64,000 bases of DNA. Origin: Verrucomicrobiota bacterium (lineage in GTDB: Bacteria > Verrucomicrobiota > Kiritimatiellia > CAIQIC01). Position numbers and translations under genes: made by a program. The notes under the pieces are model-generated. The model had not been told where the DNA came from and searched no databases. It worked only from the letters and a program-made list of their open reading frames with translations. The stretch spans positions 1-64,000 of the forward strand of contig SCQF01000009.1 of the NCBI GenBank assembly GCA_004321905.1, in the 5' to 3' direction. Positions 53,599 to 60,779 of the stretch are shown here, piece after piece. Positions within the stretch are counted from its first letter, which is position 1. Each line of letters begins with the position of its first letter.

Positions 53599-53832
53599 TC
53601 AGATGCCTTCGCCTTCCTTGACCACCGTGGTATCCACAAGGCCCCAGCGCAACTTGAGCCAGAGGCGCTCGTGAAAATAGTAGGTGCCGATCTTGATTGC
53701 AAAATCCAGACCGCCGATGAGGAAACCCGTTTTGACCGAGCCGCTAATCAGCCAGGCGGCGAGTGTGGTTTGCAGCAGCGCAAAAAAGCGCCAGCTCACC
53801 GCTTTGGTCAGGCTGCGTTTATGCGATTCCAT
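53599..53832 (-). CDS. DUF2061 small membrane protein
   Basis: 77 residues; KAVSWRFFALLQTTLAAWLISGSVKTGFLIGGLDFAIKIGTYYFHERLW is the DUF2061 pattern, with two hydrophobic helices. It follows cysN by 10 bp. DUF2061 genes are often seen beside sulfate-activation genes, so a role at the membrane in sulfate use is possible but unproven. Confidence 0.8.
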   Translation of the reverse strand: MESHKRSLTKAVSWRFFALLQTTLAAWLISGSVKTGFLIGGLDFAIKIGTYYFHERLWLKLRWGLVDTTVVKEGEGI

Positions 53833-53842
53833 AAAACTCCAT

Positions 53843-55651
53843 TCAAATTTGGTAATCCACGATCACGTGGCGTTGCCGTAGTAAATTCCAGACGGCCTCG
53901 ACGCCGGTGGTCACGGGGGTATCGGCGGCGAGATTCAGCGCCGGTTCGAAGCGGTTGAAGCTGTTCTCGCCGATGTTGATGACCATGATCTCGTGCGGGC
54001 TGTTGAGCAACGCCAGCGCTTGCAAATCGTAATCGTCCACGCCTGCGAGCGAGGTGATGAAAATCTGGCCGGCGTCGGTGAGGATACGCGCCAGTTCGCC
54101 GAGCCGCCGGATGTGGTCGTCGTGAATCTCGCCTTCCGCGCGCAGATCGGCGTCGAGGCCGCGTTTCACATTTTCGATGCCGAGGTAGTAGGTTTTGAAT
54201 TGCTTGGCGAACAGTTGCTTTTCCAAGGTTTGGGCAAAGGTTTCGCCCAGCGCGGCGTCGGCGCTGGTGAAGACGACGAATTTTGCGCCGTGGCCGTAGC
54301 TGGCGGTGCGCTCCTCACGCGCGATGGTGCTGTTTTTCCAGGCAATTTCGCGCGAGCGGATGTGCTCCTCCAGCGTGGAACTGTGCGCGGCCTCGGCGGC
54401 GAGGATGATGCCGGCGCCGGCGATCTCGTAGTTGTCCACGATCACCAAACGACCGGTTTGCTCAATATCGCCGACAATGTCGAAAGCGACCGGTTTGGGC
54501 GTTTCCAAAATTACTTCCGCCACATCATGGCGCTCAACGGCCTGCTTATTGGCCACCGTGCTCAATTCGGTGGCGTCGAGGACGGCGAGCACGTCCACCA
54601 ACTTCACCGGCGAGCGAATCGCGCCGAGTTTGAGCTTGTAGGTTTTGCTCTTGATGAGCGGGGCGCGGCCCATCCAAAACAAGTTGACACGAAAACGCGT
54701 GCTGGTTTTCAGCGGCGGCTGGTCGGCTTTGGTCATCCACTCGCCGCGCTTGACATAGAGCTGGGTGTCCAGCGTGAAGCCGGGCGCTTCGCCGGCGGAG
54801 GCGGAGGTTTTGGTCGGTCCGTTGAAATACTCGATGGACTGGATACGCGAGCGCTTACCGGAGGGCTGGAACACGACTTCGTCGCCCACGGCGATGCTGC
54901 CGGTCTCGATGGTGCCGGCGAGGATGCGACGCTCGTCGCCTTGCTCGGTGAATTTATAAATATCCTGCACCGGTAAACGGAACGGCAGTTTGTCGGGGAA
55001 TTCTTTATTGCGGAAACGGTCAATCTGCTCCAACACGGTCGGGCCGGTGTACCACGGTGTTTCGGCGGAGCGCGCCGCGATGTTGACGCCTTGCATGCCG
55101 CTGACCGGAATGAAGCTGACCGGTTGCAGTTGCAGGCGTTCGAGGAAGGCGGTGTAGTCCGCGCGGATTTTCTCGAAGACTTCCTGGCTGTAGCCGACCA
55201 AATCCATCTTGTTCACCAGCACGGAAAGCTGGCGCAGACCGAGCATGGACATCATGTAGCCGTGCCGCTTGGTGTTCTCGCGGATGCCTTCCTTGGCATC
55301 AATGACGAGCAACGCCGCCTCGGCACGCGAGGCGCCGGTGATCATGTTTTTCAGAAACTCCACATGGCCGGGCGCATCAATCAAAATATAGCGCCGTTGG
55401 GCCGTACGGAAGAAGCAGCGCGCGGCATCAATGGTGATGCCTTGCGTCTGCTCATCTTTCAGCGCGTCGAGCAAAAACGCGTACTCGAATGGCTTGGCGT
55501 TGCGGCGGCAGGTCTCGCGCACCTGCTCCAGTTTGCCCTGCGGCAGCGCACCGGTCTCCGCCAGTAGGCGGCCGATGATGGTGCTTTTGCCGTGGTCCAC
55601 ATGGCCGGCCATCACGACGCTCAACGGTTCTTCGTTCTTCGCCGTGCTCAC
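53843..55651 (-). CDS. cysN: Sulfate adenylyltransferase large subunit CysN with degenerate APS-kinase-like tail
   Basis: 602 residues. The GTPase part (1 to about 425) has [14 protein letters not shown] and NKMDLVG and drives APS formation by CysD. The C-terminal part (about 440-602) aligns in layout with APS kinase ([39 protein letters not shown]), but the P-loop region reads [11 protein letters not shown], without GxxGxGKS/T, so kinase activity is unlikely. GTG 55651 overlaps the cysD stop by 4 nt; longer frames run into cysD. An imperfect palindrome lies at 54221-54235. Confidence 0.92.
54221..54235. repeat. Imperfect palindrome inside cysN
   Basis: TTCCAAGGTTTGGGC; encodes QTLEK in the kinase-like tail. 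Confidence 0.35.
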
Positions 55652-56526
55652 ATGTAACCTCCGCGCCGCAGCGTCTCCAAGCCGCCATCTTCCTTGTCCT
55701 GCTCGCGGCCCGAACGTTCCGCGATGTTCACGAATTTTCCGCTCTGTAATTCCGCGATGATCTCGCGCACGTTGCGCGCCTCGGACTCCACCGGTTTGGT
55801 GCAGGGATAGCAACCGAGCGAGCGATAGCGGCAACCATCGCCGTGGTTGAAGTAGAGCGGAATGATCGGAATGTTTTCGCGCTCGATATATTCCCAGATA
55901 TTTAGCTCTGTCCAGTCCAGCAGCGGATGGACACGCACGTGTGTGCCAGGCGCGAAGTCGGTCTTGAACTGCTTCCACAACTCCGGCGGCTGATCGCTCA
56001 CATCCCATTCGTGTTGCTGATCGCGCGCCGAGAAATAGCGCTCCTTGGAGCGGCTACCTTCTTCGTCGGCGCGTACGCCGACGATTACGCCGGTGAACGC
56101 CTCGCGTTTTTCCTCCGGCATATAGCGGCCAAGGGCGTGATCCATGCGGAGCCGCGGCCATTCGCCCGAAAGTGTATGCCGGAGCGCCTCGCTCTTGAGC
56201 GCCTTGCAGCAATCCACCCGCGAGAGCGTGCCTGCCGGGAACGTCTGCTTCGCGGCCAGCGCCGCGGTGTTTTGGCCGACGATCAAATCCAGCCGCCACT
56301 CCAGCGCCAACCGGTCACGGTAGGCGATCATCTCCGGGATTTTGAAGCTGGTGTCAATGTGCATCAGCGGAAACGGCACATGGCCGAAGAACGCCTTGCG
56401 CGCCAGCCAGAGCAGGACGGTGCTGTCCTTGCCGATGGACCACAGCATCACCAGACTTTTGAATTCCTTGTAGGCCTCGCGCAGAATATGCACACCCTGC
56501 GCTTCCAGTTTGTCCAAATGTGTCAT
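55648..56526 (-). CDS. cysD: Sulfate adenylyltransferase small subunit CysD
   Basis: 292 residues, PP-loop ATPase ([23 protein letters not shown]) that forms APS from sulfate and ATP together with Cys[23 protein letters not shown] and the C-terminal [16 protein letters not shown] are typical. Follows cysH by 9 bp, overlaps cysN. Confidence 0.95.
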
Positions 56527-56535
56527 CGTGATCCT

Positions 56536-57243
56536 TCAACGTTTTGTATGGCGGACGTGCAGTCCGCACTCTTTGTGTTCCGGGTTTTCCCACCACCAGC
56601 GCCCGGCGCGCGGATGCTCGCCGGCTTGAATCGCGCGCGTGCACGGCGCGCAGCCGATGGAGGCGTAGCCGCTGTCATAGAGCCGATTATAGGGCAACTT
56701 GTGCTCCCGCGTATAAGCCCAGACTTCGTCGGTCGTCCAATCGGCCAGCGGATTGAGCTTGGTGATGCCGCCATGCACCACGTCCACTTCCACCTGCCGC
56801 AGTTCGGTGCGCGTGACGCTCTGCTCGCGCCGCATACCCGTGATCCACGCCTGCAAACCGGTAAGCGCGCGCGCCAGCGGCACCACTTTGCGAATATGGC
56901 AGCAGGCGTGGCGTGCCTCCAGCGACTCGCGGAACGAAAACAAACCCTGTTCCCGCTCCAACCGCTCCACGTCCTCGCGGTCAGGAAAGTGCCACTCGAT
57001 TTTCACGCCGTATCGCCGGCGTAACGCCTCGGCGCACTCGAACGTTTCCTCGTTCAGCCGGCCGGTATCGAGTGCAAAGATGCGCATATCGGGCCGGATC
57101 GCTTGCAGCATGTGCACGAGGATCACGTCCTCCAAGCTGAAGCTGCAGGCGAGTGCCAGCCGGGGATGGAATTGCTCCACCGCCCAAGCCAGCACGTCCT
57201 GCGGGCTGCCGCGGATGGCCGCGATGTCGGTCGCTGATTTCAT
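56536..57243 (-). CDS. cysH: APS reductase (iron-sulfur CysH type)
   Basis: 235 residues; reduces APS to sulfite. Four cluster cysteines C114/C115 (ACCHIRKV) and C198/C201 (GCAPC) mark the [4Fe-4S]-containing APS-type enzymes rather than PAPS-only E. coli CysH; catalytic C226 in KECGLH. This agrees with the lack of a working APS kinase in the locus. Sulfite reductase genes are not in the window. Confidence 0.93.
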   Translation of the reverse strand: MKSATDIAAIRGSPQDVLAWAVEQFHPRLALACSFSLEDVILVHMLQAIRPDMRIFALDTGRLNEETFECAEALRRRYGVKIEWHFPDREDVERLEREQGLFSFRESLEARHACCHIRKVVPLARALTGLQAWITGMRREQSVTRTELRQVEVDVVHGGITKLNPLADWTTDEVWAYTREHKLPYNRLYDSGYASIGCAPCTRAIQAGEHPRAGRWWWENPEHKECGLHVRHTKR

Positions 57244-57257
57244 CGGGTGCGCTTGTT

Positions 57258-58229
57258 TTAGGCTGCCGGTTGAACACCGATGCCTTCGAAGAGCAGCGTG
57301 GAGAGATAGCGCTCGGAGGCGTCGGGCAGCACGACGACAATGGTCTTGCCGGCAAACTCCGGCAACTTCGCCAACCGCACCGCCGCGACTACCGCCGCGC
57401 CGCCGGAAATACCGGCGAGCACGCCTTCTTCCTTCATCAAGCGCCGCGCCATGATCATGGATTCCTCGCCGGTCACTTGCTCGACGCGATCCACGACGGA
57501 AAGATCGAGCGTATCGGGCACAAAGCCCGCGCCGATACCCTGAATCTTGTGCGGGCCCGGTTTGAGGTCCTGCCCCGCGCGCTTTTGCGTCAGTACCGGA
57601 CTTTCCGCCGGTTCCACCGCCACCGAAATCAGTTTGGCCTTCTTGGTGTTCTTGATGTAGCGCGAGACACCGGTGATCGTGCCGCCGGTGCCGACGCCGC
57701 TGACGAGCACATCCACTTTACCGTCGGTGTCGTTCCATATTTCCGGGCCGGTTGTCTTCTCGTGAATCGCTGGATTTGCCGGATTCTTGAACTGCTGCGG
57801 AATGAAATAGCGCTTCGGATCGGACGCGGCGATTTCTTCCGCCCGCCGGATCGCGCCCTTCATGCCTTCGGGGCCCGGCGTCAGAATCAGATTCGCGCCC
57901 AGCGCCGCCAAAATCCGCCGCCGCTCGATGCTCATCGTCTCCGGCATCGTCAGCGTCAGCTTATAGCCCCGCGCCGCCGCCACATAGGCCAACGCGATAC
58001 CGGTGTTACCGCTGGTCGGCTCCACGATTTCCACACCGGGCTTGAGTACGCCACGCTGCTCGGCGTCCAAAATCATGGCGGCTCCGATGCGGTCCTTGAC
58101 CGAGTAGGCGGGGTTGCGGCCCTCTGTTTTGGCCAGTACCGTCGCCTTCGCGCCATCCGTGACGCGGTTGAGTTTGACCAGCGGCGTATTACCGATGGAC
58201 TGCGAGTTATCACTGAATATACGGCTCAT
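57258..58229 (-). CDS. cysK: Cysteine synthase (O-acetylserine thiol-lyase)
   Basis: 323 residues, PLP enzyme. [16 protein letters not shown] Lys in [27 protein letters not shown] and the Gly-rich phosphate loop [10 protein letters not shown] are all present. Last step of cysteine synthesis. cysE is not in the window. Confidence 0.96.
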
Positions 58230-58264: not shown

Positions 58265-59008
58265 TTACGAAATCTTCCCGCACAACGGGCACGCCGCGTT
58301 GCGTCGCACGGCAATCTCCCGGAATTGCATGGTCAGCGCGTCGAACGTCAACAGGCGATTTGTCAACAGTTTGCCGGCACCCGTCACGAACTTGATCGCC
58401 TCTGCCGCCTGAATCGTGCCGATGACGCCCGGCACCACACCGAGCGGCCCGACCGCCGGGGTAGGGGGCGGCGGCGGATCGGCGAACACGCAGCGATAGC
58501 ACGCGGTCTGGCCCGGCAGCACCGTCAGCGTCTGTCCAAAAAACCGCAGAATACCCGCGTGCGAATAAGGCTTGTCCGCAGCGTGGCAGGCGGCGGCGAT
58601 CAGATATTTGCTCTCGAAATTATCCGTTGCATCAATCACGAAGTCATAGTCGCGCAGCAGTGCGCCAGCATTGACTTCCGTCAATCGCTCGGCGTGCTGA
58701 CGAATTTGTACCGCCGGATTCAGTGCTTGGAATGTTCGCGCGGCACTCTCCACTTTCAGCCGCCCGACGTCTGCCGTCGTATGTGCGATCTGCCGTTGCA
58801 AGTTGCTCAAATCCAGCCGGTCGCCATCGGCGAGGCCCAGAGTACCGATGCCCGCCGCTGCGAGATAAAATCCCGCCGGCGAACCGAGTCCGCCGACGCC
58901 GACAAGCAACAGGCGCGCCGCGGCCAATTTGGCCTGACCCGCCGCGCCGATCTCCGGCAACGCCAGTTGGCGCGCATAGCGTTGTTGGGCTGACTCGTCG
59001 AAATTCAT
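58265..59008 (-). CDS. ThiF/MoeB/HesA-family E1-like adenylyltransferase
   Basis: 247 residues. ATP-binding LLLVGVGGLGSPAGFYLAAAGIGTLGLADGDRLDLSNLQRQ; zinc cysteines CYRC and CPLC. Such proteins adenylate the C-terminal Gly of a small sulfur carrier (MoaD/ThiS/CysO-like). No carrier gene is visible nearby. Its place between ridA and cysK suggests sulfur transfer for cysteine or cofactor synthesis; MoeB and ThiF are alternatives. Confidence 0.85.
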   Translation of the reverse strand: MNFDESAQQRYARQLALPEIGAAGQAKLAAARLLLVGVGGLGSPAGFYLAAAGIGTLGLADGDRLDLSNLQRQIAHTTADVGRLKVESAARTFQALNPAVQIRQHAERLTEVNAGALLRDYDFVIDATDNFESKYLIAAACHAADKPYSHAGILRFFGQTLTVLPGQTACYRCVFADPPPPPTPAVGPLGVVPGVIGTIQAAEAIKFVTGAGKLLTNRLLTFDALTMQFREIAVRRNAACPLCGKIS

Positions 59009-59011
59009 GGC

Positions 59012-59380
59012 TCACTCAACGGCGGCAATCGCCTCGATCTCCACCCGCGCGCCTTTCGGCAGCGCCGCGACTTGAAAACTCGACCGCGCCGGCGGCTGCG
59101 CGCCGAAATAGCGCGCATACATTTCGTTCATCGCCGCGAAATCGCGGATGTCGGCCAGAAAAACGGTCGTCTTGACCACGTTGGCGAGATCAGCGCCCGC
59201 GGACTGCAACACCGTACGCAGGTTTTCAATCGCTTGCGCGGTCGCTGCGCCAATCTCCGTCGCCAGTTCGCCATCCCACTTCACCGGCAACTGGCCGGAG
59301 ACGAAGATCAAGTTGCCCGCGCGGCGAAAATGCGAATAGGGCCCGGCGGGCGGCGGCAATTTATCTTTTCCTGCACTCAT
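59012..59380 (-). CDS. ridA: RidA family enamine/imine deaminase
   Basis: 122 residues; hydrolyses reactive 2-aminoacrylate released by PLP enzymes such as those in this block. GPYSHFRRAGNLIFVSGQLPV, a KTTVFLADIRDFAAMNEMYARYF core and C-terminal RSSFQVAALPKGARVEIEAIA. The substrate-binding Arg is in ARSSF. ATG 59380 (MSAGKDKLPPP) is chosen; the frame further upstream only translates the palindrome triplet. Confidence 0.93.
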   Translation of the reverse strand: MSAGKDKLPPPAGPYSHFRRAGNLIFVSGQLPVKWDGELATEIGAATAQAIENLRTVLQSAGADLANVVKTTVFLADIRDFAAMNEMYARYFGAQPPARSSFQVAALPKGARVEIEAIAAVE

Positions 59381-59384
59381 GTTT

Positions 59385-59463
59385 TTCCAAGGTTTGGAAT
59401 TTGATGGTTTCATTTTTTCCAAGGCTTGGAGAAAGCGGTGTTCCACTTTTCCAAGCCTTGGAA
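59385..59463. repeat. Palindrome triplet, exact 32-bp period
   Basis: Copies at 59385-59399 (centre GGT), 59417-59431 (centre GGC, last base G) and 59449-59463 (centre GCC). Both intervals are exactly 32 bp. Between ridA and metY. Confidence 0.92.
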
Positions 59464-59471
59464 GATTCGCT

Positions 59472-60779
<1,308 letters not shown>

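Follow-up and report, generated by a model that had tools for sequence, protein, structure and literature searches.

A putative pseudo-APS-kinase tail on two types of CysN adjoining APS-type CysH in bacteria of about a dozen phyla

The window is a stretch of 64,000 nucleotides from the contig of a Verrucomicrobiota bacterium. It contains a cysN gene whose product ends in a domain that is homologous to APS kinase (CysC) and that has almost certainly lost its kinase site, as judged from the sequence. The same tail is present on two deeply separate types of CysN. The preferred reading, to which we assign a probability of roughly 0.55 as a whole, is a PAPS-free route of sulfate assimilation in which the tail is a portable pseudokinase. 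In this route, CysDN would convert sulfate and ATP to APS, driven by the CysN GTPase, and the iron-sulfur APS reductase CysH would reduce APS directly to sulfite, with no PAPS made. The tail, a descendant of APS kinase, would neither bind ATP at a P-loop nor phosphorylate APS. It would be retained within the sulfurylase as a non-catalytic component, most likely one that serves assembly or conformational control. For example, a kept APS-kinase dimer contact could join CysDN units.

The cysK, cysH, cysD and cysN genes form one tight run on the minus strand of the window. The upstream member is cysK (57258..58229), which encodes cysteine synthase. It is followed by cysH (56536..57243), which encodes an APS-type reductase (TIGR02055 APS_reductase, 261.2 bits, cut-off 235.3), and by cysD (55648..56526), which encodes the type A catalytic subunit of ATP sulfurylase (PRK05253 CysD, 353 bits, cut-off 195) and contains the SIGKDS PP-motif. 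The cysN gene (53843..55651) encodes a protein of 602 aa that comprises the GTPase subunit of ATP sulfurylase and the C-terminal pseudo-APS-kinase. Its start is a GTG at 55651 that overlaps the cysD stop as ATGTGA, and it ends at 53843. A 721-aa ORF with an ATG start was rejected as an over-extension upstream. The protein is assigned to CysN by its score against TIGR02034 (339.7 bits, cut-off 336.1), its intact GTPase motifs ([14 protein letters not shown] and NKMD) and the adjoining cysD. The GTPase core (residues 1-420; 54392..55651, minus strand) is of type A in the core trees, and its best solved matches are EF-1alpha (3wy9) and CysN (1zun_B). The tail consists of the last 181 residues (422-602; 53846..54388, minus strand).

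The initial annotation described the tail as having the layout of an APS kinase without the P-loop, and both parts of this description hold. The Pfam APS_kinase profile matches the tail with 40.1 bits (cut-off 21.1) and covers only profile positions 5-81 of 152. Two other models score below their cut-offs, with 44.4 bits for TIGR00455 apsK (cut-off 138.7) and 428.1 bits for the bifunctional CysN/CysC model PRK05506 (cut-off 715). AlphaFold2 models the tail with high confidence (pLDDT 89.2, pTM 0.87), and the best Foldseek matches of this model are APS kinases, with E values down to 1e-10 and query TM scores of about 0.74-0.77. In the alignment with CysC, the catalytic motifs are lost throughout. 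The former P-loop, [11 protein letters not shown] (54239..54271, minus strand), aligns exactly at the position of FTGLSGSGKST in CysC and contains neither the Walker A lysine nor the Ser/Thr. The former catalytic and APS-binding loop LDGDNV is represented by LGIENV (54167..54184, minus strand) in the alignment and motif counts. The DGDN, FISP and lid (KGLYKKAR...FTGI) motifs are absent from the window tail.

These losses are shared by the homologous tails. Walker A (G....GK[ST]) is found in 0 of 79 tails and in 19 of 20 live CysC domains, the exception being a fragment. A loss common to all 79 tails is not due to chance. Among the 70 non-redundant tails, the lid is deleted in essentially all, DGDN is replaced, with the first D mostly changed to G, and a stretch that ends in DD takes the place of FISP.

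The tail is widely distributed. The whole design recurs, with 60-63% identity, in three relatives that belong to the same class as the window but to other families. Of 388 genomes searched in the phylum, about 40 have the tail. Among named genomes, a scan yielded 51 dead-tail loci in Verrucomicrobiota, Lentisphaerota, Kiritimatiellota, Bacillota, Spirochaetota, Thermodesulfobacteriota, Chlorobiota, Bacteroidota, Acidobacteriota, Nitrospinota, Omnitrophota, Hydrogenedentota and a lambdaproteobacterium, so that the tail spans about a dozen phyla. The order cysH-cysD-cysN is found in nearly all of the named loci.

The tail is under purifying selection, with dN/dS of 0.03-0.24 in 13 pairs, and evolves somewhat faster than the CysN core. 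Eleven positions are invariant across 69 tail sequences, and the C-terminus is conserved. The columns of the former P-loop count among the domain's most variable positions (2.6-3.2 bits). Nearly invariant are the N-terminal arm HxxRExxW, RRxGELARIxTDxGQIFIT and LNxPxE. The most conserved stretch, [19 protein letters not shown] (54053..54109, minus strand), has an entropy of 0 to 0.6 bits at most positions and contains the family-specific residues R (of GELAR), T and F. The R and T of GELARIxT are invariant in 70 of 70 dead tails and are not invariant in live kinases. Such a pattern is indicative of selection on the fold and on a protein contact surface, and not on a nucleotide site. In two Acetivibrio species, A. 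mesophilus (L083:9452-9454) and A. straminisolvens (L082), cysH and cysD are intact and cysN is broken, in one species by an in-frame stop and in the other by a split across several frames. These breaks may be sequencing errors or real losses.

In the tail tree, the dead tails are all united in a single clade that excludes every live CysC domain (100/100). The cores of the dead-tail CysN proteins do not mirror this topology and emerge in two places. Type A, which includes the core of the window, is a deep sister group of all classical CysN/NodQ sequences; type B branches within them. That the entire dead-tail CysN protein arose only once was rejected, since forcing the cores into one clade gives an AU p of 7e-6 while the tails still form one clade. 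The CysD sequences of type B operons are likewise distant from the CysD of the window (about 190-215 bits, compared with about 500-570 in type A). One tail clade on two core clades implies that the tail was transplanted or that the sulfurylase was exchanged beneath it. By these phylogenies, the tail has a single origin and has moved between ATP sulfurylases. In a tree rooted with EF-1alpha and EF-Tu, type A and the classical CysN sequences, including 1zun_B, group together apart from EF-1alpha (100/100). A separate recruitment of type A CysN from EF-1alpha, a possibility raised by the better score of 3wy9, was therefore rejected, because all CysN sequences form one branch. In a relative from the same genus as the window (L006, G002), an intact, live CysC tail follows a type-A-related CysN core, and the genome also encodes a plain CysDN that has no tail and adjoins a CysH with about 69% identity to that of the window. 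Sulfurylase types have been exchanged within this genus.

The CysH of the window is a cluster-bearing reductase of the APS type by sequence. The [4Fe-4S] motif, located by alignment, consists of a CC pair at residues 114-115 (56899..56904, minus strand) and a CAPC pair at C198-A-P-C201 (56641..56652, minus strand). The nearest solved relative is the APS reductase of P. aeruginosa (2goy, 207.6 bits, compared with 84.4 bits for the PAPS reductase of E. coli, 1sur). With the TIGR02055 match, this bears out the earlier assignment of the cysteines to an APS-reductase cluster. The protein has both the CC...CxxC and the ECGLH motifs of the Pseudomonas/plant-type enzymes; it is an ordinary member of its kind and presents nothing new. 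The motif is an imperfect test of specificity, as CysH of the B. subtilis type can carry the cluster and yet use PAPS.

All 62 CysH proteins that adjoin a dead-tail CysN have CC...CxxC, and all fall on the cluster-bearing side of a split with 100% support. The nine cluster-less CysH proteins are all from genomes with an APS-kinase match. The tail had been described as matched to CysH, and this is correct in one direction: no dead tail in this set is accompanied by a cluster-less CysH. CysH does not in turn require the tail. Sequences 69-73% identical to that of the window adjoin plain, tail-less CysDN in its own genus and class, so a CysH of this type can do without the tail, and an obligate partnership between the two was rejected.

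The genome of the window (2.53 Mb) is 94% complete, so that a cysC could be hidden, and within it no other APS kinase, no sulfotransferase match and no CysQ above the cut-off were found. In the phylum, 29 of 40 dead-tail genomes, including that of the window, are without a live APS kinase. Sulfotransferase matches are present in 2 of these 29 genomes, compared with 5 of the 11 that have a live kinase. CysQ scores above the cut-off in only two of the dead-tail genomes, both of which also have a live kinase, and in none of those searched among the 29. The combination of a dead kinase, a cluster-bearing, APS-type CysH and no other APS kinase in the genome argues for a route that skips PAPS, as the initial annotation proposed. 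Assimilation from sulfate through APS to sulfite is the simple reading and a well-supported inference.

Matches to the haem-copper oxidase family are less frequent in genomes with the dead tail (6 of 39) than in comparison genomes (25 of 41; Fisher p 3e-5), which is a lead only, as the two sets are phylogenetically non-independent. The match in the genome of the window is a 759-aa frame that is possibly a nitric oxide reductase.

That the domain is kept for some role other than catalysis, also suggested in the initial annotation, is supported by purifying selection, the single tail clade and the occurrence on two CysN cores. A non-catalytic assembly or regulatory domain has about an even chance of being the specific role, going by the conservation pattern. 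A broader form of this reading is tentative and has the odds against it. In this form, the tail would be a portable control or scaffold domain for sulfate assimilation through APS alone, in bacteria that are mostly anaerobic; it would have arisen once, spread over about a dozen phyla, reached a second, deeply separate CysN/CysD pair, and set sulfurylase assembly or the commitment of APS to reduction.

The role first put forward for the tail was APS binding or channelling, in which it would bind APS and hand it to CysH by docking. The constant cysH-cysD-cysN neighbourhood is consistent with such a hand-over, as are the pairing solely with cluster-type CysH (62/62) and the persistence of this kind of CysH when the tail is on either CysN/CysD type. 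However, the positions by which APS kinases contact APS (DGDN-R, LGF and the N of ENIRR) are lost or variable in the tails, and the close CysH relatives that adjoin a CysDN without a tail, within the genus and class of the window, also argue against it. APS binding or channelling is therefore an unlikely role, and this part of the earlier interpretation was not supported; the dead kinase, the APS-type CysH, the route without PAPS and the retention for another role were.

The second alternative, an allosteric nucleotide sensor, is somewhat less probable than channelling. Its model is the fungal ATP sulfurylase, which carries an inactive APS-kinase-like domain documented as regulatory (PMC3779200). 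That domain binds PAPS and inhibits the enzyme. The architecture is alike in principle, as the sulfurylase of Penicillium chrysogenum also has a kinase-inactive domain of the APS-kinase fold fused C-terminally to a sulfate-activating enzyme, and this protein (1m8p) is among the Foldseek matches of the tail. It is the nearest known parallel. The fungal enzyme is, however, a homohexamer of the PF01747 type that is unrelated to CysDN, whereas the window tail is fused to a CysN GTPase. Moreover, in the bacterial tails the P-loop region is hypervariable, the APS site has disappeared and the binding residues are not conserved, and in most hosts there is apparently no PAPS for a sensor to detect.

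A vestige drifting toward loss is congruent with the missing catalytic site and with the somewhat faster evolution of the tail, but it is quite improbable given dN/dS well below 1, the conservation of a single clade across about a dozen phyla, the invariant positions and conserved C-terminus, and the presence of the tail on a second core. That the tail still works as an APS kinase through a rebuilt ATP site can be dismissed almost entirely: the fold is kept and some members have GxxGxGK with R or E at the next position, where Ser/Thr would be expected, but the lid, DGDN, FISP and the Walker A Ser/Thr are all absent, and the lysine is also missing in most members, including that of the window.

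The bifunctional CysN/CysC proteins (NodQ and the CysNC of M. tuberculosis) share with the CysN of the window a CysN core, a C-terminal domain of the APS-kinase fold and a CysD partner. The CysH of M. tuberculosis is an APS reductase, as in the window. Unlike the tails described here, in which the P-loop, LDGD and lid are all lost, the kinase of CysNC is intact and active, with all three present (PMC4373884). No description of dead CysC tails on CysN was found in the open-licence papers searched.

In photoferrotrophic Chlorobi, CysH, CysD and a cysN/C of 1800 bp are located in one cassette, and labelled sulfate was used to show that sulfate is assimilated (PMC5498476). The authors read the product as a CysN/C with a PAPS-making APS kinase and suggested sulfolipids (PMC5498476). 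In a family of Chlorobiaceae, about 38 of 61 genomes contain a dead-tail CysN, which is about 602 aa long in the eight sequences read, in agreement with the published 1800 bp. By family and length, the published CysN/C is probably a member of the dead-tail family. Family models and published pathway reconstructions call such proteins CysN/C and credit their hosts with PAPS and sulfation. For the dead-tail family this credit looks wrong, since the occurrence of a dead domain in about a dozen phyla, next to an enzyme with no need of the kinase product, is not congruent with a working APS kinase. The tail would be the second instance, independent of the first, in which an APS kinase fused to a sulfate-activating enzyme has become a pseudokinase. 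It makes possible a direct test of what such domains do once the ATP and APS sites are gone, and the operons, in which one tail is combined with two CysN/CysD types, offer a natural experiment for this test.

The genome of the window, at 2.5 Mb, is smaller than those of its same-genus relatives (5.3-7.2 Mb). Directly 3' of cysN is a small gene (53599..53832, minus strand) that we take to be DUF2061-like; homologues of this ORF adjoin cysH or cysN in many dead-tail loci. Upstream of the run, at 58265-60767, the window encodes a ThiF/HesA-like protein, a RidA-like protein and a MetY-like sulfhydrylase. Homologues of ThiF and MetY recur across dead-tail loci from several phyla, a pattern suggesting that the sulfide produced is passed on by a sulfur-carrier route.
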